From positions 1 to 31,449 of the IMG/VR virus record IMGVR_UViG_3300046804_000116: a stretch of 31,449 bases of DNA, one strand, 5' to 3'. This stretch comes from a virus. A program made the position numbers and the translations under genes. The notes beneath the pieces are model-generated. The model was not told the origin of the DNA. It did not search any database and saw only the letters and a program-made list of their open reading frames with translations. Shown here piece after piece: positions 4,844 through 28,846 of the stretch. The number at the start of each line of letters is the position of its first letter. Positions within the stretch are counted from its first letter, which is position 1.

Positions 4844-5034
4844 GCGATGAAATCCGTGTGCTAGCACACGTGCAAAAGGAAATTCAGAAGACACGGCTTG
4901 AGCAGCAGGAGTTCCTTGCTACCGACCGTGCTTCTTCTTACGAAGAGTACAAAAAGGTCTGTGGGGTAATCCGGGGTCTTAACCTCGCAGATCAAATCAT
5001 TAACGACCTCGTGCAACGATTGGAAAAAGAATGA
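4840..5034 (+). CDS. Small helical protein of unknown function
   Basis: A 64-residue acidic-to-neutral protein, predicted mostly helical (VQKEIQKTRLEQQEF, then a Leu-rich C-terminal helix). It begins with GTG at 4840, overlapping the portal stop (GTGA), with GGAG at 4831-4834 as ribosome-binding site, and ends in an ATGA overlap with the GroES-like gene. Small helical genes at this position are common in phages of this layout, but I cannot name a function. Tight coupling on both sides indicates a real gene made together with the portal. Confidence 0.75.
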   Translation: MSDEIRVLAHVQKEIQKTRLEQQEFLATDRASSYEEYKKVCGVIRGLNLADQIINDLVQRLEKE

Positions 5035-5441
5035 GTGAATTCGACGTGTCCGCTGTGGACTTATCAGGCGTGCTGAATAAGAGCGCCGAAGAGAAGGCGA
5101 AACAACTGCCTGACCCTAAAACATTTCACTTGCTCTGTGTCGTCCCCGAGGCGATGGAAGAGTACGCTGACAGTGAAATCGGGATTGTGAAGTCCGCTGG
5201 CGACATCTGGCGTGAAGAGATGCTCACCCCCGTGCTATTCGTAGTCAAGGTGGGCCCCGATGCCTATAAAGACGCTACCCGCTTCCCAAGTGGGCCTAGC
5301 TGCAAGGAAGGTGATTTCATCATCGTCCGACCCAATTCAGGCACCCGCCTGAAGATTCATGGCCGTGAATTCCGCATCATCAACGATGACTCGGTTGAAG
5401 CAGTCGTGGAAGACCCCCGTGGTATCACACGTGCATCGTAA
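5031..5441 (+). CDS. GroES-like co-chaperonin (Cpn10 fold)
   Basis: A 136-residue protein whose C-terminal two-thirds reads as a Cpn10 beta-barrel: a VLFVVKVGPDAY strand pair, then SGPSCKEGDFIIVRPNSG (the GroES 'kvGD.Vif..g.G' core) and EFRIINDDSVEAVVEDP at the end. Bacterial GroES is about 97 residues; the extra 35-40 residues are N-terminal. In T4 and related phages a phage co-chaperonin replaces GroES so that GroEL can fold the major capsid protein. Its place between portal and scaffold genes fits capsid folding here. Starts in an ATGA overlap. A highly diverged mobile loop is expected and I cannot judge GroEL binding. Confidence 0.75.
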   Translation: MSEFDVSAVDLSGVLNKSAEEKAKQLPDPKTFHLLCVVPEAMEEYADSEIGIVKSAGDIWREEMLTPVLFVVKVGPDAYKDATRFPSGPSCKEGDFIIVRPNSGTRLKIHGREFRIINDDSVEAVVEDPRGITRAS

Positions 5442-9166: not shown

Positions 9167-9457
9167 ATGACCATGCAAACCGACGTAAAGAGTACGCACC
9201 TTAACGCGTCTGGCTCCATTTTTGCGGGTCGCACGCGTGTCAAGGGCTTCTCTATCTGTGCAACTGCTAGCACCGCTGGCACCCTGTTGTTGAAAGACGG
9301 CGGTTCCAGCGGCACTACACGCATTGAAATCGACATTCCATCTAACTCCAACCCCAACACGTTTTACACATTGGTGCCCGGAGAAGGTGTTTTGTTCACT
9401 ACAAACGTGTACGCCAGCTTGACTGGTATTGCAAGCGTAACAGTGTTTTATGGCTGA
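9167..9457 (+). CDS. Small beta-rich structural protein
   Basis: A 96-residue protein with AGRTRVKGFSICATASTAGT, repeated short beta strands and a hydrophobic C-terminal strand (IASVTVFYG). A near-perfect AGGAGG ribosome-binding site precedes the ATG at 9167; an in-frame ATG at 9173 is possible. It overlaps the glycosyltransferase-like gene by 8 bases. Likely a virion component of unknown role. Confidence 0.55.
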   Translation: MTMQTDVKSTHLNASGSIFAGRTRVKGFSICATASTAGTLLLKDGGSSGTTRIEIDIPSNSNPNTFYTLVPGEGVLFTTNVYASLTGIASVTVFYG

Positions 9458-10199
9458 TACCGAGAAGAGCATTAACCTAGCTGGTCGCAAACTGATGGTT
9501 GCGATTCCAGCTTACGACGGCAAGCTGAACATTGATTCGGCTTTTGCCTTGTCCAATCTGGCCGTTCAGGTCCAGTCGTTGGGGGTTAAGCTCTATCTCA
9601 CGCACCTCTCGGGGTGCTCCCTCATTACGAAGGCACGCAACTGCTTGGTTGCGGACTTTCTCAAATCCGACGCAGACACGCTTCTGTTTGTCGATGCTGA
9701 TGTGGTTGTTACCGCTGATGCGATTCTCCGCTTGATGGCGTTGAGTCTGGATAAAGACATTACGGCAGGTATCTACCCTCGCCGTGGTATGGACCGCAAA
9801 TTCTTCCTTGACTACTACCTCGACGAGAATGGTGGCTTGGAGTTTGACGCGAATGGCATGCTTCGTGTGAAGCGTATCGGCACAGGGTTCATGATGATTC
9901 AACGCCACGTGCTTGAGACAATGATTGCCAAGCATCCAGAGTGGAATTACTTCAACAACGTAGACAACCGTACTGACAGTGCAATCTTTGATTTGCAGAT
10001 CGTCAACGGCGAGTACTACGGCGAAGATTATTTGTTCTGTGACCGTGCAACCGCTGACGGCTTCACAGTTTTTCTTGACCCCTCCATCAGCCTCCCACAC
10101 GTCGGTACTGAGAAGTTCACTCGTGACTTTGAAGCAGATGTGTTGAAGCCCCTGCTGGAACAACACTGCACGCCAGTATTGAAAGTTGTAAATGGCTAA
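9450..10199 (+). CDS. GT-A-type glycosyltransferase-like protein
   Basis: A 249-residue protein with a GT-A Rossmann-like N-terminal half: strand KLMVAIPAYDGKLN, a segment SLITKARNCLVADFL (about residues 57-71), and the metal/nucleotide-sugar motif LLFVDADV (Asp82-Ala-Asp84, a DxD). A later GTGFMMIQRHVLE segment and EDYLFCDRA (acidic catalytic-site candidate, about 193-201) complete the GT2-like pattern. It has no membrane segment. It would transfer a sugar from a nucleotide donor to an unknown acceptor: virion protein, DNA or host glycan. Its location among virion genes favours a virion protein target. Overlaps its neighbours by 8 bases on each side. Confidence 0.7.
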   Translation: MADTEKSINLAGRKLMVAIPAYDGKLNIDSAFALSNLAVQVQSLGVKLYLTHLSGCSLITKARNCLVADFLKSDADTLLFVDADVVVTADAILRLMALSLDKDITAGIYPRRGMDRKFFLDYYLDENGGLEFDANGMLRVKRIGTGFMMIQRHVLETMIAKHPEWNYFNNVDNRTDSAIFDLQIVNGEYYGEDYLFCDRATADGFTVFLDPSISLPHVGTEKFTRDFEADVLKPLLEQHCTPVLKVVNG

Positions 10200-17184: not shown

Positions 17185-20100
17185 ATGGCAATCGTTCTAA
17201 AAGACAGAGTTAAAGAAACCACAGCTACAACCGGCACAGCTGATTTTGTGCTTGGCGGTGCGCCATCGGGGTATCAAACCTTCTCCGTCATCGGCGCAAA
17301 CAATTTCACCTACTACTGCTGTTTTGACCAAACTACCGGTGCTTGGGAAGTTGGTTATGGGCAGTACACCACCACGGCTGGCGGTACGCTGGTGCGCACT
17401 ACAGTGCTGTCAAACAGTGCGGCCACTACAAGCAAGATTTCTTTTGGCGCTGGCGACAAAGAAGTATTTCTTACCTACCCCGCTGAAAAAGCCATCTACG
17501 AAGAAATAGCTGGCAACGTTTTGATCGACGGCGGCCCAATCACCGTGATTGGCAACGGTGTTACTGGGTACACAACCTTCACGGCAGCGCTTGGCGAGAT
17601 GTACGCCGACGTTAATTCGTTTGCGCAGTTCTACGCCCAAAACTTGAATGACGGCTCCGAAGCATCAGCCGACTTTGTTGCGTATAACGACCTTGGTGAC
17701 GGGGTAAATAACTTTGTTGACGTTGGTATCAACAGCTCGAACTACAGCTCGGCCACATATCCCATCTTTACTCCCAACTCTGCCTATGCGTTCAACGACG
17801 GCGGCGAGATGTTTGTCGGTAGTGCCACAGACGACTTGGTATTGTTCGCTGGTGGTGTTGACCCAACTGATGAAGCCGTACGCATCGACAAGACAACTAA
17901 GGCTGTAACCACGGCATCTGATGTAAACGCTGGCGGTAACGTGAACGCTACTGGCGGTACTTTTACTGCGGCTGTTACTTCTACCTCGCCCTCTGTCACA
18001 TCCCCAGCAAACAACGAATTTGTGACCAAGGCGTATGTTGACAACGTTGCCACAACCGGTATTCACATCCACACCCCCGTTGCGGCTGAAACAAGCGCGG
18101 CTTTGTCTGCTGTCTACACCCAAGGTGGCACGACTTTCAACATTACGCAAATCACCGGTGGCAACACTGTTGTAACGTCTACAACCCACGGGCTGTCCGT
18201 GGATAACCAGATTTGGTTGACCACAACTGCGGGTAATGGTTTGTCGATCAACACACCATACTTTGTTTACGCCACCCCAACGACAACCTCGTTGCAGCTC
18301 ACTGCTTCGTGGAACGGGCCGTTGCTTACTGGCCTGACCAATGCGTCTGGTCTGTCTTATGCCACTCGTGCCAACTCTGGTGTGGGCGCATACCTTGAGT
18401 CTTCTGCAAATGCAACACTGCCTGTTGCTGGCGTAACTACCGGCGATCGTGTGTTGGTGTACAACCAATCCACATCGTATTGGAACGGTGTCTACACAGT
18501 CACATCGCTGGGTTCTGGCGCATCTAAGTGGAAGCTGACCCGTGCAACTGACGCCAACTACTACAGCCCTTCTGACACAAGTGGGTTGAGTGAAGGCGAC
18601 TACTTCTTTGTTCAGTCGAACTCAGAGTCGTATGTGTTGACGACGCCCGGCATCATCATTATTGGGTACACCGGCATCACCTACACATTGTTCTCATCTG
18701 TGCCGACATATATCGGTGGCACGAACATTGATGTCACTGGACAAACCATTTCGCTGACCGGTACGGTTGCCGCCACTAACGGTGGCACAGGCACAAATAC
18801 AGTCACAACAGGCGACCTGCTCTATGGCTCTGGCACAAACACTTGGGCCAAGCTGGGTATTGGTTCTGCTTATCGTTCTTTGGTTGTCAACGCTGGCGGC
18901 ACAAACGTCGAATGGAACGCTGTCGCTCTGAACCAATCAGGCGCTGTTTCCGGTGCTTTGCCAGCTACCAACGGTGGTACTGGGATTACAGCCTACAACG
19001 TAGGCGAGATGGTCTACGCGAACACGACTACCACGCTTGATGTGGTAACTCGCAACACCACAACGACCAAGAAGTTCTTGAGCCAAACTGGTACAGGTAC
19101 ATCTGCGCAAGCGCCCGTGTGGGACCAACCCGCTGCATCTGACATCACCGGTCTAGCACCATCGGCCACAACAGATACGACCAATGCAAGCAACATCACT
19201 TCAGGCACTTTACCGACGGGTCGGCTTACTGGCTCTTACACAGGAATTACTGGCGTCGGCACTCTTACTGCTGGCACTTGGAACGCTAGCACTATTGCTG
19301 CTAACCGTGGTGGCACTGGCCTTGCCTCTTACGCTGTGGGGGATTTGCTTTACGCAGATACGACAACCACACTCGCTGCGCTAGCCGATGTTGCAGTAGG
19401 TAACGCACTCATCTCGGGCGGTGTCGCCGCTAACCCATCATGGGGCAAGATTGGCTTGGCCACTCATGTATCCGGCACTTTGCCCGTGGCAAACGGCGGC
19501 ACCGGCGTAACTTCGTCCACTGGTTCAGGTTCTGTGGTGCTGTCCAGCAGCCCTACGCTTGTCACACCTAATTTGGGTACACCTTCGGCTGCTACGCTAA
19601 CAAACGCTACTGGACTCCCACTGTCCACCGGCGTGACAGGTAATCTGCCCGTAACTAACTTGAATAGTGGAACCAACGCTTCATCAGGCACATTTTGGCG
19701 CGGTGACGGTACATGGGCAACAGCTACAAATACTGCGGGGTCTTACACTCGGACAGCGTTTACTGCTACCGGCGGCCAAACAACTTTTGTTGCAGCATAC
19801 ACAGTTGGGTATGTAGAGGTGTTCTTGAACGGCGTGCTGTTGAACGCCAGCGACTACACCGCAAGCAACGGCTCGTCTGTTGTATTGGCTACGGGCGCTA
19901 CCAGTGGCGATATTGTTGAACTGATTGCATACGCCACTGGCACACTGATTCAGTTACCAATTAACTTGGCTAGTCAGGTGACAGGCACGCTGCCCGTTGC
20001 AAACGGTGGTACAGGCACGACAACATCTACAGGTACGGGTTCGGTTGTTTTGTCTAGCAGCCCAACACTGACCACGCCAAACTTGGGTACGCCATCAGCA

Positions 20101-20739
20101 GCGACACTCACAAACGCTACCGGCCTACCACTCAGCACAGGCGTTACAGGCAACTTGCCTGTTACCAATTTGAACAGTGGTACTGGCGCATCTACATCAA
20201 CTTTCTGGCGCGGCGACGGTACATGGGCCGCTGGTGTTTCAGGCCCCACCGGACCAACAGGTCCTACCGGTCCCACTGGCGCTCCGGGTCCTACAGGTCC
20301 TGTTGGCCCTACCGGACCTACCGGCCTTACTGGAAGCCCCGGACCAACTGGCCCAACTGGCCCAACTGGCCCAACTGGTGCCCCGGGACCGAACGTTGTT
20401 ACGACTACAACAGGTAGTGCACCCTATTACATGGCTCGCGCATGGGTTAACTTTAACGGCTCGGGTACAGTGTCCATATACTCAAGCGTTAACGTGTCTT
20501 CAATCACTGACAACGGTGTTGGTGATTACACGGTGAACTTCAGTACTGCGATGGCAGATACAAACTATGCCTGTTTAGTTTCGCAATCAAGGGATGCGGG
20601 CGCTAACCCACCAACTCCAGTATCAACTCAAAACATTGCCGGTACGTCAACAAAGACAACCAGCGCGGTTCGTGTAGGTACGGGTGGTAACACCGGTGCG
20701 TATGACCCAACTCAAGTTTCTGTGGCCATATTCCGATAA
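17185..20739 (+). CDS. Large tail fibre with collagen-like stalk
   Basis: A 1184-residue fibre. Order seen: an N-terminal domain with [16 protein letters not shown] and [13 protein letters not shown] (about residues 70-110), as in many fibre bases; a middle region with [16 protein letters not shown]; several NGGTG-type stalk repeats (about 530-760); two nearly equal 83-residue cassettes (763-845, 933-1015) around a further beta domain with [19 protein letters not shown]; 17 collagen-like Gly-X-Y triplets (1020-1070); and a tip domain (1071-1184) with [12 protein letters not shown] and [12 protein letters not shown]. Two small genes follow, then a homologous shorter fibre. Likely receptor-binding, but the receptor is unknown. 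Confidence 0.88.
19471..19719 (+). repeat. Fibre cassette, copy A
   Basis: Encodes 83 residues from [12 protein letters not shown] to FWRGDGTWA. About 75 of 83 residues equal those of copy B, but about two-thirds of the shared residues use different synonymous codons. Confidence 0.85.
19981..20229 (+). repeat. Fibre cassette, copy B
   Basis: Same length and nearly same protein sequence as copy A, from [12 protein letters not shown] to FWRGDGTWA, immediately ahead of the collagen-like stalk. The DNA is heavily diverged at third codon positions. Confidence 0.85.
20242..20394 (+). repeat. Collagen-like Gly-X-Y repeats, stalk 1 (17 triplets)
   Basis: Seventeen uninterrupted Gly-X-Y triplets, mostly Gly-Pro-Thr. 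Thr fills the Y position 12 times; Pro fills it three times (GAP, GSP, GAP). Such repeats form a triple helix in trimeric phage fibres. Confidence 0.95.
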
Positions 20740-20750
20740 CCGAGGCAGCA

Positions 20751-21017
20751 ATGACAAAACGAATCATATATAGAACAGAAGAAGGCGGGGTTGCGGTCAT
20801 CGTCCCCCTGCTGGATTGCGGGTTAAGCGTTGAAGAGATTGCTAAAAAAGATGTCCCACAAGGTTTGCCATACGCTATTGTTGATACGGAATCTGTACCT
20901 TCGGATAGAACTTTTCGTGCGGCTTGGGAAGTTGACCCCTCAGAATTAAACGACGGTGTTGGATTGGGGCCCGACGCTTGGTTCGCTCAACAGTTTGGCA
21001 GAGGTGGCGCAAGATGA
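20751..21017 (+). CDS. Fibre-associated small protein, type 1, copy 1
   Basis: An 88-residue protein: RIIYRTEEGGVAVIVPLLDC, LSVEEIAKKDVPQGLPYAIV, then FRAAWEVDPSELNDGVG. It is homologous to the 97-residue protein at 22097, which also follows a collagen-like fibre. Small conserved genes directly behind fibre genes are often fibre-assembly chaperones or fibre-capping proteins; that is inference, no motif proves it. It ends in an ATGA overlap with the next gene. Confidence 0.7.
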   Translation: MTKRIIYRTEEGGVAVIVPLLDCGLSVEEIAKKDVPQGLPYAIVDTESVPSDRTFRAAWEVDPSELNDGVGLGPDAWFAQQFGRGGAR

Positions 21018-21247
21018 TTTCTGTAAATATTCAAAAAGCAAAGGAAATTGCGCATATCATTCGCCGCGATAAGCGTGAAGAAGAGTTCGCGCCTTTGGAC
21101 AAAGTTATTATGAAGCAAATACCCGGCACAGATGTTGGTGCGGTTGAATCCCAACGGCAAGCCATCCGTGATAAGTATGCGGCCATGCAGATTGAGATTG
21201 ATGCTGCGCAAGACCCACAAGAGCTTAAAAACATTTTGGGGGTGTGA
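21014..21247 (+). CDS. Fibre-associated small protein, type 2, copy 1
   Basis: A 77-residue helical protein: MISVNIQKAKEIAHIIRRDK, FAPLDKVIMKQIPGTDVG, AVESQRQAIRDKYAAMQIEI. It is homologous to the 79-residue protein at 22387. The ATG at 21014 was chosen because it overlaps the previous stop as in copy 2; an in-frame ATG 36 bases upstream would overlap more. A tail-fibre assembly chaperone role is likely by position and by the helical, charged make-up. Confidence 0.7.
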   Translation: MISVNIQKAKEIAHIIRRDKREEEFAPLDKVIMKQIPGTDVGAVESQRQAIRDKYAAMQIEIDAAQDPQELKNILGV

Positions 21248-21250
21248 TCT

Positions 21251-22093
21251 ATGACCATATCACGCAATCTAGCAAACACAGGACAGGTTGTTAACACTAG
21301 CGGTCAGGTGAGTCTTACTACTGGTGTTTCAGGCACTCTACCCGTCGCAAACGGCGGTACGGGTGTGACTACTTCCACAGGTTCTGGCGATAATGTTTTA
21401 TCTGTAAGCCCCGTACTTACAACCCCCAATTTGGGCACGCCGTCCGCTGTTAATTTGACAAACGCTACCAGCGTACCACTCAATCAGGGCACCGGTAACT
21501 TGGCTGTGGCAAGGTTCAATGGCGGCACAGGCGCATCCATATCTACATTCTGGCGTGGTGATGGTACGTGGGCTGCGGGCGTTTCTGGCCCTACTGGCCC
21601 TACTGGCCCTACTGGCGCTACTGGACCTACTGGCGGCCCCGGACCAACTGGCGCCCCCGGACCTACTGGACCTACTGGACCTACAGGCTCACCCGGTGGT
21701 ACTGGCCCTACCGGACCTACTGGCCCACCGGGACCAAACATTCTTTCAACCAGCGGTTCTGCTCCTTACTGGGCAGCGCGTGTATGGGTGTCGTTCAACG
21801 GAACCGGCTCAATTTACAACAGTTCAGGTCTGTCAAGTGTGACCGTAAACGGTACGGGCGACTACACCATGAACTTTTCTACGGCGATGGCAGACGCTTT
21901 TTACAGTTGCCACGCAAGTGCAAGCTATGCGTCTTCACAAAGTAGTCGGCAGACATGTGTGAATATGTGCACAGTCGCAGGGCGTTCATCGTTGCAAGCC
22001 CCGACAACTACCACACTGCGTTGGACTACATCGGCGGTTGAATCTGGTACGAACTACACCGCTGTTTACAACTTCTTTACCTTGTTCCGGTGA
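21251..22093 (+). CDS. Short collagen-like tail fibre (paralogue of the larger fibre)
   Basis: A 280-residue fibre that matches only the end of the large fibre: a short N-terminus, one cassette (27-108) from [12 protein letters not shown] to FWRGDGTWA, 17 collagen triplets (113-163) and a tip domain (164-280). The tip begins like that of the large fibre ([32 protein letters not shown]) and then diverges ([20 protein letters not shown]), with four Cys. It lacks the attachment-type N-terminus of the large fibre. It may bind a second receptor or join the first fibre as a mixed trimer. Confidence 0.85.
21329..21574 (+). repeat. Fibre cassette, copy C
   Basis: 82 residues aligned with copies A and B, more diverged in the second half ([20 protein letters not shown] in place of [20 protein letters not shown]). 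Confidence 0.75.
21587..21739 (+). repeat. Collagen-like Gly-X-Y repeats, stalk 2 (17 triplets)
   Basis: Seventeen triplets, the same number as stalk 1. Thr is in the Y position 12 times, Pro four times (GGP, GAP, GSP, GPP). Third-position codon choice varies, so the DNA is not a simple perfect repeat. Confidence 0.95.
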
Positions 22094-22096
22094 TAT

Positions 22097-22390
22097 ATGC
22101 AAAACACGAGAATCATTTATCAAGGGGGAAACGGGTTGGTTATGCTGGCTCCAGCCCCCGCCTCGGGACTGACAGTTGAGCAAATTGCGCTCAAAGATGT
22201 GCCACCCGGCGTGCCTTACAAGGTTGTTGATGTGAGCGATTTACCATCTTCTGTACAGTTTATATCGGCGTGGGAGATTGACCCTGCGTTGTTGAATGAT
22301 GGCGTGGGTGCCGACTATGGTGTTGGGTCTACCAATGCCGTGATTGGCTGGAACCTTGATGGCACACCTGTTTTGAGGGACGACTCATGA
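22097..22390 (+). CDS. Fibre-associated small protein, type 1, copy 2
   Basis: A 97-residue homologue of the 20751 protein: TRIIYQGGNGLVMLAPAPAS, LTVEQIALKDVPPGVPYKVV, AWEIDPALLNDGVG. The C-terminus is longer and different (IGWNLDGTPVLRDDS). Directly follows the short collagen fibre and ends in ATGA with the next gene, the same arrangement as in copy 1. Confidence 0.7.
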   Translation: MQNTRIIYQGGNGLVMLAPAPASGLTVEQIALKDVPPGVPYKVVDVSDLPSSVQFISAWEIDPALLNDGVGADYGVGSTNAVIGWNLDGTPVLRDDS

Positions 22391-22626
22391 TTACAGTTAA
22401 CATGGATAAAGCAAAACAAATCGCGCACACTTACCGCCGCGAAGCTAGATCATGGGAGTTCAAGCCGCTGGATGCAATGATTGCAAGCCAAATTCCCGGC
22501 GTAGATGTTGTGGCTGTTGAAGCACAGCGTCAGGCTATTCGTGATAAGTACGCCGCCATGCAGCAGCAGATTGACGCCGCTACTGCCGTGTCAGAGTTAG
22601 AAACTTTACCAATCTACCAACCATGA
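22387..22626 (+). CDS. Fibre-associated small protein, type 2, copy 2
   Basis: A 79-residue homologue of the 21014 protein: MITVNMDKAKQIAHTYRREA, FKPLDAMIASQIPGVDVV, AVEAQRQAIRDKYAAMQQQI. The last ten residues differ. It overlaps both neighbours in ATGA. Presumed to act on the short fibre as its paralogue acts on the large one. Confidence 0.7.
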   Translation: MITVNMDKAKQIAHTYRREARSWEFKPLDAMIASQIPGVDVVAVEAQRQAIRDKYAAMQQQIDAATAVSELETLPIYQP

Positions 22627-23168
22627 GTCATTTACCAATCTGGTTTTTAGGCTCTGTGCCGTCTCACCTGTGCGATCAAATCACGCAGGAGCTTTCGGCT
22701 ATCCCGCCACGGGACGCCGCTATGGGGGTTAACGGGGAACAAATCTCTCATGGCCACCGCAATACTGAAGTTCGGTTTGCCCGTGACGACTATTGGTTTG
22801 GTGAAACTATGGAAAACTTTGCTCACGAGTCAAACCACATCTGCAAGTGGGACTACGATATAAAAGGGCGAGAGGCCATCCAGTTCGCCAAATACGGTCC
22901 AGAACAGCATTACAACTGGCACGTGGACAACTTTCCGTTGTGCGGTAGGGACACGGATCGTAAGGTCACCGTTGTGTGCCTTCTCAACGACCCCGCAGAA
23001 TTCACCGGTGGTGACTTCCAAATTCGGCTGTACTCAGAATACACCGCACCTTTAGTCAAAGGCAGCATGATTGCCTTCCCTTCTATCCTTGAACACCGCG
23101 TCGTTCCGGTGTTGTCAGGCACGCGCTACTCAGCGACAATGTGGTTTAACGGGCCACGCTTCAGATAA
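22623..23168 (+). CDS. 2-oxoglutarate/Fe(II)-dependent oxygenase (prolyl-hydroxylase-type fold)
   Basis: A 181-residue protein with the full active-site set of the 2OG-Fe(II) family: YNWHVD (His100, Asp102) and LEHRV (His158) to bind iron, and Arg168 (SGTRYSATMW) for 2-oxoglutarate. The segment order (EQHYNWHVDNF, RKVTVVCLLND, FTGGDFQI, KGSMIAFPSILEHRVVPV) is that of the PKHD/P4Hc subfamily, which includes prolyl hydroxylases. No transit signal is seen. It overlaps the fibre-partner gene (ATGA) and sits behind two collagen-like fibres, so a proline in those stalks is an attractive substrate; DNA or host protein substrates are not excluded. Confidence 0.88.
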   Translation: MSHLPIWFLGSVPSHLCDQITQELSAIPPRDAAMGVNGEQISHGHRNTEVRFARDDYWFGETMENFAHESNHICKWDYDIKGREAIQFAKYGPEQHYNWHVDNFPLCGRDTDRKVTVVCLLNDPAEFTGGDFQIRLYSEYTAPLVKGSMIAFPSILEHRVVPVLSGTRYSATMWFNGPRFR

Positions 23169-23177
23169 GGACACGAT

Positions 23178-24521
23178 ATGTCTTCCAGCTATTCACCAGA
23201 CCTGCGTATTGAACTCATTGGCACCGGCGACCAAGCCGGTGTGTGGGGCGCTACCACCAACAACAACTTGGCCTATGTGCTTGAGCAAGCAGTCGCGGGT
23301 TATGTTTCTGTGGCTGTAGCTTCAGCCAACCAAGCGCTCACTTACATCAACGGCGGCACGTCAGACCCAGCACTTAATCAGGCGGTACACGCAAACCTCG
23401 CGCTGACTACCTCCACCGGTGCAAACTTTGCGGTGTACGCGCCACCTGCTTCCAAGCAGTACACAATCTACAACTCATCGCTTTACACAGCTACGATCTA
23501 CAACTCGACTGTAATTGGCAACACAACTGCGGCTGGTACGGGTGTGGCTATCCCCGCTGGTAAAACCATGACTGTGTGGAGCGACGGTACAAACTTCAGC
23601 CAGCAGAACACGCATCTCATTTCCCCAACAATCGCCAGCCCAACGCTGACTACCCCCGCACTGGGTACCCCATCTTCTGGTACGCTGACAAACTGTACTG
23701 GTCTTCCTGTATCCACTGGCGTTTCTGGTCTTGGTTCTGGCGTTGCCACTTTTTTGGGTACGCCTTCTAGCGCAAACTTGGCCGCTGCCGTGTCCGATGA
23801 AACGGGGTCTGGCGCTTTGGTGTTTGCTAACAGCCCAACCCTCACAACCCCTAACTTGGGCACACCTTCTACTTTGGTAGGTACAAACATTAGCGGTACC
23901 GCATCAAGTTTAAGTATTGGCGGCAACGCTGCCACAGCCACCAACCCACAGAGTGGCGGTTCTTTTATTACATCAAGCAACATTGGTAGCCAATCTGTTA
24001 ACTATGCCACCACTGCGGGTAACGGCGGCGTAACTTCTGTCAACGCAAAAACAGGCGCTGTTCAATCGGTCACCACATTTGGAACCGTCAATACATCCAG
24101 CGGCGTAACTGAAAAAGCGTTTACTGGCATACCGTCTTGGGTAACAAGAGTCACGATGACCTTTGTTGGGGTTACACCAAACAATATCGACGCCTTAGTA
24201 CAGATCGGTTCCGGGTCATACACCACGTCAGGATACACATCAACAGGGCAAACTGTGTATGGCGGTAGTGGGGATACTAGATCAGACACCACTGGATTCC
24301 GTATGTACACATACTCTGGATATGTTATGTCTGGACATCTCACACTTGTTAAACAAACAGGGAATGTGTGGACTTGCACGCACATGGTGACATACGACAC
24401 GATCGGTATTACGTTTGGGGCAGGTTCGGTTTCTCTTAGCGGCGCTATTGATCGAATTCGTTTGACCTCTACTTCGGGGTCAACGACGTTCTCTGGCAAC
24501 GTCAACATCATGTACGAATAA
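23178..24521 (+). CDS. Third tail fibre / receptor-binding protein
   Basis: A 447-residue fibre protein. Its N-terminus (SPDLRIELIGTGDQAGVWGA, then TNNNLAYVLEQAVAGYVSV) is a widespread phage fibre start. A stalk with LTTPALGTPSSGTLTNCTGL and [14 protein letters not shown] follows, like the cassettes of the collagen fibres but without Gly-X-Y repeats. The C-terminal domain (about residues 315-447; FTGIPSWVTRVTMTFVGV, DALVQIGSGSYTTSGY, GSVSLSGAIDRIRLTS) is a known-type beta tip of phage fibres. The leader TAAGGACACGATATG is nearly that of the portal gene. No partner genes follow this fibre. Confidence 0.82.
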   Translation: MSSSYSPDLRIELIGTGDQAGVWGATTNNNLAYVLEQAVAGYVSVAVASANQALTYINGGTSDPALNQAVHANLALTTSTGANFAVYAPPASKQYTIYNSSLYTATIYNSTVIGNTTAAGTGVAIPAGKTMTVWSDGTNFSQQNTHLISPTIASPTLTTPALGTPSSGTLTNCTGLPVSTGVSGLGSGVATFLGTPSSANLAAAVSDETGSGALVFANSPTLTTPNLGTPSTLVGTNISGTASSLSIGGNAATATNPQSGGSFITSSNIGSQSVNYATTAGNGGVTSVNAKTGAVQSVTTFGTVNTSSGVTEKAFTGIPSWVTRVTMTFVGVTPNNIDALVQIGSGSYTTSGYTSTGQTVYGGSGDTRSDTTGFRMYTYSGYVMSGHLTLVKQTGNVWTCTHMVTYDTIGITFGAGSVSLSGAIDRIRLTSTSGSTTFSGNVNIMYE

Positions 24522-26614: not shown

Positions 26615-28846
26615 ATGCCGTTACAAAAACTTCAATTCCGCCCCGGTGTCAACCGCGAAGGCACAACTTTAGCCAACGAAGGTGGCTGGTTCGAGTGCGA
26701 CAAGATTCGCTTCCGTTCGGGCTTTCCAGAAAAAATTGGTGGCTGGGTTAAAGACACGGGCACATACTACCCAACCGAACCTATTGGTACGTTTGTAGCA
26801 GACGGTACGGAAAGCGCCGCCGCACCTACCACAGGCTCATATTGGGGCGTGTGCCGTTCTATGTGGAATTGGATTACCTTGGCAGGGCAAAACTTGCTTG
26901 GCCTTGGCACTAATTTGAAGTTTTATATCCAGAACGGCCCCAACGGTTATTTCTATGACATCACCCCCATTCGTGATACCAACGCTGGTATTACTAATGC
27001 GTTTACTACTGTCAACGGCTCAACAACGGTAACAGTTAACGACCCCGGGCACGGTGCACAAACCGGTGACTTTGTGATGATCTCCGCAGTTGGCGGCGCA
27101 ATTAATGGTATTCCTGCCGCCGCGTTAAACCGTGAATTTCAGATCACATATTTGAACAGCAACCAGTACAACATCACTGTAAGTTCCCCCGCCACCTCTG
27201 GCAGCACCACAGGTACAGCCACTTTTACTTACCAGATCAACACAGGTTTGGATACATACACCGTGGCTACTGGCTGGGGCGCCGGTACTTGGGGCGGTGT
27301 GGTGGCTGGTTCCGCAACTACTACTCTGAACGGTACGATCAACTCTAGCGCCACATCTATTACCCTCACTTCAGCCGCGTCATTCTCTGCATCTGGCACT
27401 ATTGTGATTGATACCGAGTCCATCACATACTCAGGTAAGTCAACAAATACGCTTACTGGCTGCGTTCGTGGCGCAAATGGTACGACTGCGGCGGCGCATA
27501 CTTCTGGTGCTACTGTTACACAGGTCGCATCCACTTGGAACGGTTGGGGTATCGCTGCCGCTAACTCCGGTGTCGGGCAACAACTTCGTCTCTGGAGCCA
27601 AGCCAATTACGGTCAAGATTTGATATTTAACCCACGTGGCGGCGGCATCTACTACTGGTCTACTAATAACAACATCAACACGTTTGATCGCGGGCAACTT
27701 CTTGTTGCTGGCAGTTCTATCACTGTGCGTGGGTCATCTGTGGCAATCGACTCAACATGCCCGTCCGTAGCCAACATTGTTATGGTGTCAGACTCGTCGC
27801 GTTTCGTAATTGCTATGGGTACAAACGACCCAACGGGCGCGTACGCCACCACCACACAAGACCCCTTGCAGATTCGTTGGTCGCAACAAGAAGAGTTCTA
27901 CACATGGACGCCCTCGCCTACCAACCAAGCCGGTGACTACCGCCTGAGTAACGGCTCAGAGATCATTGGCGCTATGCAGACCCGCCAAGAGATTTTGATT
28001 TGGACTGATGCCGCCTTGTACTCAATGCAGTACCTTGGCCCCCCATACGTTTGGGGCTTCCAGATCATGGGTAGCAATTTGTCTATTGCTGGTCCCAACG
28101 TCATGGCTACAGCCAACAACGTGACCTACTGGATGGGCGCAGACAAGTTCTATATGTACTCTGGCCGTGTGGAAACACTGCCATGCTCTTTGCGGCAGTA
28201 TGTGTTTGACGATATTAACTTGGTGCAGTCGTACCAATTCTTTGCTAGCACCAACGAAGGCTACAACGAGATTTGGTGGTTCTATTGTTCAGCCAACAGC
28301 GACACAATCGACAAGTATGTGGTGTTCAACCACCTTGAGCGTACTTGGTACTACGGCACACTGGCCCGCACTGCTTGGTTGGATAGCCCCCTGCGTGAAG
28401 TGCCAATGGCGGCTGGCTATAACGGTCAACTGATTTACCAAGAGACAGGTAACGATGACGGCACTACAACACCTGCTTCGCCTATCGAGGCTTACGTGCA
28501 GTCCTCTGACTTTGATATTGGTGATGGCCATAATTTTGGTCTTGTGTGGCGTATCATTCCTGATGTAACCTTTGACGGCTCTGATACAGCGGCCCCTTCA
28601 TTGGACTTCACTGTGCGCCCACGCCAGAATCCCGGCACAAACTACGGCAGCTCTGATAGCCCAACAATCACCAGTGGCAATAACTATTCTGGTCAGCGCG
28701 TATACAACGTGCAGCAGTTCACTGAGTATGCCTACGTGCGCATCCGTGGACGTCAGATGGCGTTCAAAGTTAGCTCCAATGACCTTGGCGTTGCTTGGCA
28801 GCTCGGTACTCCGCGCCTTGATGTGCGCCCAGATGGACGTCGTTAA
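26615..28846 (+). CDS. Putative tail nozzle/hub protein (P22 gp10-like)
   Basis: A 743-residue protein starting LQFRPGVNREGTTLANEGGW and CDKIRFRSGFPEKIGGW, followed by repeated beta-strand units (for example IRWSQQEEFYTWTP; ALYSMQYLGPPYVWGFQIMG; NVTYWMGADKFYMYSGRVE) consistent with a propeller-like hub. The start pattern and length resemble phage nozzle proteins such as P22 gp10, to which the adaptor ring is attached. It carries the same inserted beta module as the 12754 protein (27316-27531). AGGAAA precedes the ATG at moderate spacing. Assignment is by pattern. Confidence 0.65.
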   Translation: MPLQKLQFRPGVNREGTTLANEGGWFECDKIRFRSGFPEKIGGWVKDTGTYYPTEPIGTFVADGTESAAAPTTGSYWGVCRSMWNWITLAGQNLLGLGTNLKFYIQNGPNGYFYDITPIRDTNAGITNAFTTVNGSTTVTVNDPGHGAQTGDFVMISAVGGAINGIPAAALNREFQITYLNSNQYNITVSSPATSGSTTGTATFTYQINTGLDTYTVATGWGAGTWGGVVAGSATTTLNGTINSSATSITLTSAASFSASGTIVIDTESITYSGKSTNTLTGCVRGANGTTAAAHTSGATVTQVASTWNGWGIAAANSGVGQQLRLWSQANYGQDLIFNPRGGGIYYWSTNNNINTFDRGQLLVAGSSITVRGSSVAIDSTCPSVANIVMVSDSSRFVIAMGTNDPTGAYATTTQDPLQIRWSQQEEFYTWTPSPTNQAGDYRLSNGSEIIGAMQTRQEILIWTDAALYSMQYLGPPYVWGFQIMGSNLSIAGPNVMATANNVTYWMGADKFYMYSGRVETLPCSLRQYVFDDINLVQSYQFFASTNEGYNEIWWFYCSANSDTIDKYVVFNHLERTWYYGTLARTAWLDSPLREVPMAAGYNGQLIYQETGNDDGTTTPASPIEAYVQSSDFDIGDGHNFGLVWRIIPDVTFDGSDTAAPSLDFTVRPRQNPGTNYGSSDSPTITSGNNYSGQRVYNVQQFTEYAYVRIRGRQMAFKVSSNDLGVAWQLGTPRLDVRPDGRR
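27316..27531 (+). repeat. Shared beta module, copy 2 (inside the nozzle candidate)
   Basis: Encodes NGTINSSATSITLTSAASFS, then GTIVIDTESITYSGKSTN and LTGCVRGANGTTAAAHTSGA. It matches the module in the 12754 protein in strand order and in its C-x-RG-x-NGTTAA-x-H core. Confidence 0.65.

Follow-up and report, generated by a model that had tools for sequence, protein, structure and literature searches.

A prolyl-4-hydroxylase-type oxygenase beside the collagen-like tail-fibre stalks of a podovirus and its possible role in stalk maturation

In collagen, 4-hydroxyproline stabilises the triple helix. Bacteria and viruses are said to lack prolyl hydroxylases, as well as the preference of animal collagen for proline at the Y position of the Gly-X-Y triplet (PMC3368898). 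An earlier reading of the DNA studied here, made from its letters alone (the sequence-only reading), started from the premise that bacterial and phage collagens are usually described as unhydroxylated. Here we describe a 2-oxoglutarate (2OG)-Fe(II) oxygenase gene next to two collagen-like tail-fibre stalks in IMG/VR virus record IMGVR_UViG_3300046804_000116, of which the whole stretch analysed (positions 1 to 31,449) is called the window. Our reading, to which we give a probability of about 0.74 on sequence and modelling evidence, is that this enzyme hydroxylates the Y-position prolines (Y-Pro) of the phage's own stalks.

The closest described systems show that the kind of enzyme is known. The prolyl 4-hydroxylase (P4H) vCPH of Paramecium bursaria Chlorella virus-1 (PBCV-1; PDB 5c5t) is a stand-alone viral P4H and one of the best matches to the phage oxygenase in both sequence and fold; however, its virus infects a eukaryotic alga and the two proteins share ~20% identity. 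We know of no collagen tail-fibre stalk beside vCPH. The P4H of B. anthracis (PDB 3itq, 5hv0) is prokaryotic, hydroxylates collagen-like (PPG) peptides (PMC8968730) and is matched by the phage profile (E=2.6e-5), but it is a cellular enzyme and PKHD/PiuC outscores it with that profile. The best fold match, the P. putida P4H (PPHD; PDB 4iw3, 4j25), shares 21% identity and was solved with EF-Tu, without a collagen context. Mimivirus modifies its own collagen (PMC8968730); its L230 protein, like human LH3 (PLOD3) with COLGALT1, is matched by fusion proteins of other phages that are not present in the window. The oxygenase falls in the same PHROG as the PHROG 61 oxygenases, or P4HA auxiliary genes, of aquatic phages (PMC12774648, PMC9301287). 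PHROG 61 proteins structurally resemble EGLN3 (PMC12774648), and a study of Baltic pelagic viruses, which mentions tail-fibre collagen, counts P4HA with their most abundant auxiliary genes and finds that the use of the gene 'remains cryptic' (PMC9301287). This earlier work made no tie to stalk sequence, and the cyanophage-type relatives in our data lie away from collagen. In the openly licensed literature we found no paper that links P4H-like genes of phages with Y-Pro in the stalks beside them; the use of such an enzyme on phage tail-fibre collagen appears to be new.

In the fibre region of the window a unit of fibre, A and B is present in two copies through duplication, and after the second copy come the oxygenase and a third fibre (Table 1). 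As the sequence-only reading had it, both stalks hold 17 triplets counted from the first GPT (18 with the leading GVS), and its Y-position tallies of Thr and Pro are also correct. The stalks belong to the Pfam Collagen family (PF01391, 36.3 and 31.3 bits against a curated cut-off of 27.2) and contain no Lys. The oxygenase directly follows the fibre-partner genes, as had been noticed: the A2/B2 and B2/oxygenase overlaps are both ATGA, and the latter, at 22623-22626, puts the oxygenase start 4 bases inside the B2 stop.

The oxygenase is a member of the 2OG-Fe(II) oxygenase superfamily (PF13640, 66 bits against a cut-off of 27), and the HxD...H...R site reported earlier is indeed intact, being formed by the iron ligands H100, D102 and H158 and the 2OG-binding R168. 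According to published structural work, prolyl hydroxylases all carry an arginine (Arg161 in CrP4H, Arg322 in PHD2), an Arg at the active-site opening binds the carbonyl of the substrate proline, and a tyrosine (Tyr140 in CrP4H, Tyr310 in PHD2) marks P4Hs, where prolyl 3-hydroxylases (P3Hs) have Leu (PMC4396695). The phage enzyme carries the P4H-type residues Y97, R113 and W174: Y97 precedes the first iron His by three residues, and R113 and W174 (six after the 2OG residue) correspond to the substrate Arg and the Trp of P4Hs by motif order, not by superposed coordinates. In 64 homologues R46, Q87, Y91, H100, D102, R113, H158, R168 and W174 are invariant, and Y97 is kept in all 36 members of one collagen-linked clade (clade I, that of the window) and all 18 of the other (clade II), while Phe replaces it in 5 of 7 members of a paralogue group. 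The genes of this group (L494-L505) lie away from collagen, between the terminase and the portal, and their products may have a different substrate. The enzyme is not of the animal collagen P4H alpha-subunit type, as its 181 residues comprise the catalytic domain only, with no separate helical (TPR) domain for substrate binding, and Arg168 takes the place of Lys as the 2OG-binding residue.

Structure prediction of the oxygenase by itself gave a P4H-type fold. The model, built from a homologue alignment, has a pLDDT of 92 and a pTM of 0.89, and in a Foldseek search of the PDB its first match is P. putida P4H (4iw3, TM 0.74, E=7.8e-11), followed by PKHD/PiuC, human PHD2 and vCPH; the double-stranded beta-helix fold is thus nearest to prolyl hydroxylases, with PKHD/PiuC matches interspersed. 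Sequence profiles against the PDB place PKHD/PiuC first, and then the P4Hs of PBCV-1, B. anthracis and Chlamydomonas, PPHD and P3H1. The closest relatives of known structure, peptidyl prolyl hydroxylases and PKHD/PiuC enzymes, argue against a part in DNA or nucleotide modification, or in auxiliary metabolism unrelated to the virion; phrog_61 is filed under auxiliary metabolism and the oxygenase weakly matches phrog_2297 (DNA endonuclease), but its gene overlaps a fibre-partner gene and is associated with collagen, and we hold such a role to be very improbable. A cellular origin of the oxygenase was rejected, 84,980 species genomes yielding one weak relative, and among annotated phage isolates no close relative was found, the best matches being cyanophage proteins of ~31-34% identity.

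When contigs were retrieved by the oxygenase alone, a same-strand Gly-Pro-Thr stalk was nearby in 61 of the 67 that hold a close oxygenase, defined by at least 49% identity (24/28, and 37/39 in fresh contigs), in a set that includes near-copies and has 56 distinct stalk sets in all; some of the contigs lacking a stalk end at the contig edge. The median stalk-oxygenase distance is ~0.66 kb, and the stalk lies upstream in most contigs and downstream in about ten, so that order and distance vary. Control loci retrieved by a non-collagen fibre repeat had collagen in 1 of 118, and no stalk was found beside the cyanophage-type oxygenase relatives (30-39% identity) or the terminase-portal paralogues. 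For 2OG enzymes at large, the kind of co-occurrence survey proposed earlier gives no significant excess: any such enzyme lies near phage GPT stalks in 15 of 120 cases against 7 of 117 near other fibres (p=0.12, a trend). In the oxygenase tree a stalk accompanies 36 of 38 and 18 of 19 members of the two collagen-linked clades, and it is to particular clades that the strong link is confined.

Relatives were also found by backbone genes, with a sample that is a union of searches and from whose later scans loci already fetched seem to be missing. With the downstream anchor (homologues of 26615-28843), stalk and oxygenase were both present in 22, both absent in 39 and the oxygenase alone present in 1; with the upstream anchor the counts were 20, 42 and 3. 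None of the 39 cassettes without oxygenase in the downstream-anchor tree has collagen, and on that tree the two genes agree in each of the 9 independent pairs that have support (p=0.004), with none opposite, the second anchor giving agreement in 5-6 of 6. On these trees stalk and oxygenase each change state ~14 times. In two relatives the oxygenase is reduced to its C-terminal 49 residues (L032:7723-7869, L033:1300-1446) and the fibres are free of collagen, an apparent joint loss. That oxygenase and stalk were gained and lost together in dozens of relatives, and are co-inherited, is well supported by these sequence comparisons.

Residue-level evidence comes from comparing the shares of all 20 residues, at X and at Y, between 62 stalk-bearing clade I loci and 95 GPT-stalk loci with no 2OG enzyme within 4 kb. 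The strongest difference is in Y-Pro, 13.8% with the oxygenase against 2.1% without (p ~1e-18, a Mann-Whitney value that, like the next, overstates independence and is descriptive only, since the loci are related). With an identical GPTx4 filter on both sets the shares are 13.1% and 2.1%, and loci with a distant oxygenase replicate the excess (5.9%, p=0.0015). The residue before Y-Pro is mostly Ser, Ala, Pro or Gly, with GPT after. Two related phages with stalks and no oxygenase (L241, L290) have no Y-Pro.

Action elsewhere on the stalk, at the X-position Pro of Gly-Pro-Thr, at Thr or at C-3 of Pro, would agree with GPT being common to all small-oxygenase stalks, including those of clade II that lack Y-Pro, with phage CRP-6, whose stalk beside a PLOD-type fusion with no small oxygenase annotated is GAT-rich and GPT-poor, and with the B. 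anthracis P4H, which hydroxylates X and Y prolines alike (PMC8968730). However, the difference is more than sixfold for Y-Pro and slight for X-Pro (0.70 against 0.62), a nearby 2OG enzyme is missing from most GPT stalks, and the oxygenase has the P4H Tyr and not the P3H Leu (PMC4396695); we regard this alternative as unlikely.

Besides the relatedness of the loci, several points weigh against hydroxylation of Y-Pro. Four of the 62 clade I stalk loci have no Y-Pro, a related fragment (L255) has Y-Pro and no oxygenase, and the small oxygenases of clade II mostly stand beside stalks without it, so that Y-Pro need not be the target across the whole family. The weak trend for 2OG enzymes at large belongs here too. 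Adjacent genes can hitchhike as one fibre cassette, and joint gain and loss alone is therefore no proof of a substrate relation. The substrate might then be a host protein such as EF-Tu, or a non-collagen part of the fibre, with the stalk linked only through the cassette: the two genes are adjacent, the closest fold was solved with EF-Tu, a non-collagen substrate, and a related paralogue group lies between terminase and portal, away from fibres. Against this, stalk-enzyme order and distance vary, and a host substrate does not predict the Y-Pro enrichment; the NGGTG fibre repeat, tried as a substrate, was rejected, as just 29 of the 84 loci in the broader oxygenase set contain it and this oxygenase type is absent from all 118 control NGGTG loci. 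We consider a substrate outside the stalk slightly less likely still than another site on it.

Two observations on other loci may be recorded here. Beside clade II small oxygenases, stalks of L208, L231, L262, L309 and L213 carry Asp or Asn at Y (GSD, GAD, GSN) in place of Pro or Lys, possibly another hydroxylation target. The L222 record has three tandem PF13640 genes at contig positions 4507-5961 and, ~12 kb away, the stalk with the highest Y-Pro share (28%).

On the strength of the stalks, the intact active site, the P4H-type fold and diagnostic residues, the co-inheritance and the Y-Pro enrichment, we propose that the 22623-23168 product would be a phage prolyl hydroxylase acting on stalk Y-prolines (X-Pro-Gly) before trimerisation. 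Co-translation with the fibre and partner genes would place it beside the nascent stalk; drawing on the 2OG, oxygen and Fe(II) of its host, it would produce 4-hydroxyproline, and the stabilised triple helix would allow the short 17-triplet stalk to fold and stay rigid.

A second enzyme type is found in other phages. In three collagen loci, found regardless of their enzymes, the small oxygenase is followed by a ~600-residue protein with GT25, PLOD-GT and PF13640 domains, whose solved relatives are LH3 (E=6e-33), mimivirus L230 lysyl hydroxylase (1e-9) and COLGALT1 (4e-4); mimivirus R699 is another of them. Of 55 fusion loci whose upstream sequence extends for at least 2.5 kb, a stalk is present in 50 and Lys at Y (Y-Lys), mostly as GQK, in 49; Y-Lys makes up 0.4% in stalks without a 2OG enzyme. 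Homologues, annotated as 'hypothetical protein' or 2OG oxygenase, stand beside Lys-rich stalks in the cultured phages CRP-6 (L602), S-CAM9 (L603), S-PRM1 (L604) and S-8S56 (L605), with Y-Lys shares of 37-44% in the cyanophages and 27% in the Roseobacter phage CRP-6. The PLOD or L230 type is thus met with in other phages and not in the enzyme or stalks of the window. Enzyme type tracks the Y residue, since the fusions adjoin Y-Lys stalks and the P4H-type oxygenase adjoins Y-Pro stalks. We lean, with some reserve, towards the view that tailed phages run an animal-type collagen-maturation toolkit in which the Y residue is matched to the adjacent enzyme: P4H-type with Y-Pro, and a GT25, PLOD-glucosyltransferase and lysyl-hydroxylase fusion with Y-Lys in marine podoviruses and cyanophages.

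The earlier idea of stalk maturation by hydroxylation and/or glycosylation thus has good comparative support in its first part, through co-inheritance, Y-Pro enrichment, P4H fold and residues and the fusions beside Y-Lys, and lacks support in its second for this phage. The glycosyltransferase-like gene, which had been placed in the fibre block, lies ~7 kb upstream of it; it reaches no Pfam cut-off, and its best PHROG, phrog_1574, has no assigned function. As a stalk partner it was rejected, for homologues were found in 6 of 22 relatives that have no collagen but in none of the 18 that bear it, and the locus lacks the dedicated, stalk-tied glycosyltransferase of BclA-type glycosylated collagens. 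Thr at Y was rejected as a sign of modification and is uninformative, being as frequent in stalks with no 2OG enzyme nearby (0.636) as in those with the oxygenase (0.653). Glycosylation of the stalk in this phage is thus not supported by the sequence comparisons.

Table 1. Coordinates of the fibre block and related features in the window, and of fusion genes in other loci
Feature	Position	Strand	Remarks
Divergent glycosyltransferase-like gene	9450-10199		among head genes
Tail fibre 1, 1184 aa, C-terminal collagen-like stalk	17185..20739	+	PF01391 E=4.8e-9; phrog_11355, phrog_10972 tail fiber protein
Collagen stalk 1, 18 Gly-X-Y triplets	20233..20394	+	uninterrupted run; Y = Thr x12, Pro x3
Small fibre-partner gene A1, 88 aa	20751..21017	+	50% identity to A2 (22097); no family match
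Small fibre-partner gene B1, 77 aa	21014..21247	+	phrog_20196; 64% identity to B2
Tail fibre 2, 280 aa, central collagen stalk	21251..22093	+	PF01391 E=1.8e-7; 69-72% identity to parts of fibre 1
Collagen stalk 2, 18 Gly-X-Y triplets	21578..21739	+	uninterrupted run; Y = Thr x12, Pro x4
Fibre-partner gene A2, 97 aa	22097..22390	+	4-base overlap with B2
Fibre-partner gene B2, 79 aa	22387..22626	+	phrog_20196; 4-base overlap with oxygenase
2OG-Fe(II) oxygenase, prolyl-4-hydroxylase type, 181 aa	22623..23168	+	PF13640 E=6e-18; phrog_61 E=3.8e-35
Third fibre-like protein, without collagen	23178..24521	+	phrog_31104
GT25 + PLOD-GT + 2OG fusion	L276:3674-5431
GT25 + PLOD-GT + 2OG fusion	L311:4372-6162
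GT25 + PLOD-GT + 2OG fusion	L210:2798-4618	-	
GT25 + PLOD-GT + 2OG fusion	L523-L601

The window, a podovirus fragment, also carries genes for terminase, portal, head and lysis proteins; its portal shares 42-48% identity with the portals of HTVC023P, MinM2 and CRP-901-like phages. The B1 product is probably an assembly chaperone. A GroES-like co-chaperonin gene (phrog_3188) lies at 5031-5441, between portal and head genes.

Because enzyme, likely substrate and preferred residue share one gene block, with comparative evidence at residue level, the question is directly testable. Taken together, the sequence evidence suggests that phages chemically mature their own collagen. If so, collagen hydroxylation would be placed in tailed phages, as a case of convergence or exchange with the collagen maturation of animals and giant viruses, and small enzymes would be on offer for the production of hydroxylated collagen in bacteria. 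Should the wider toolkit be real, hydroxylated collagen would be common in phage virions and, in the Y-Lys case, glycosylated as well.

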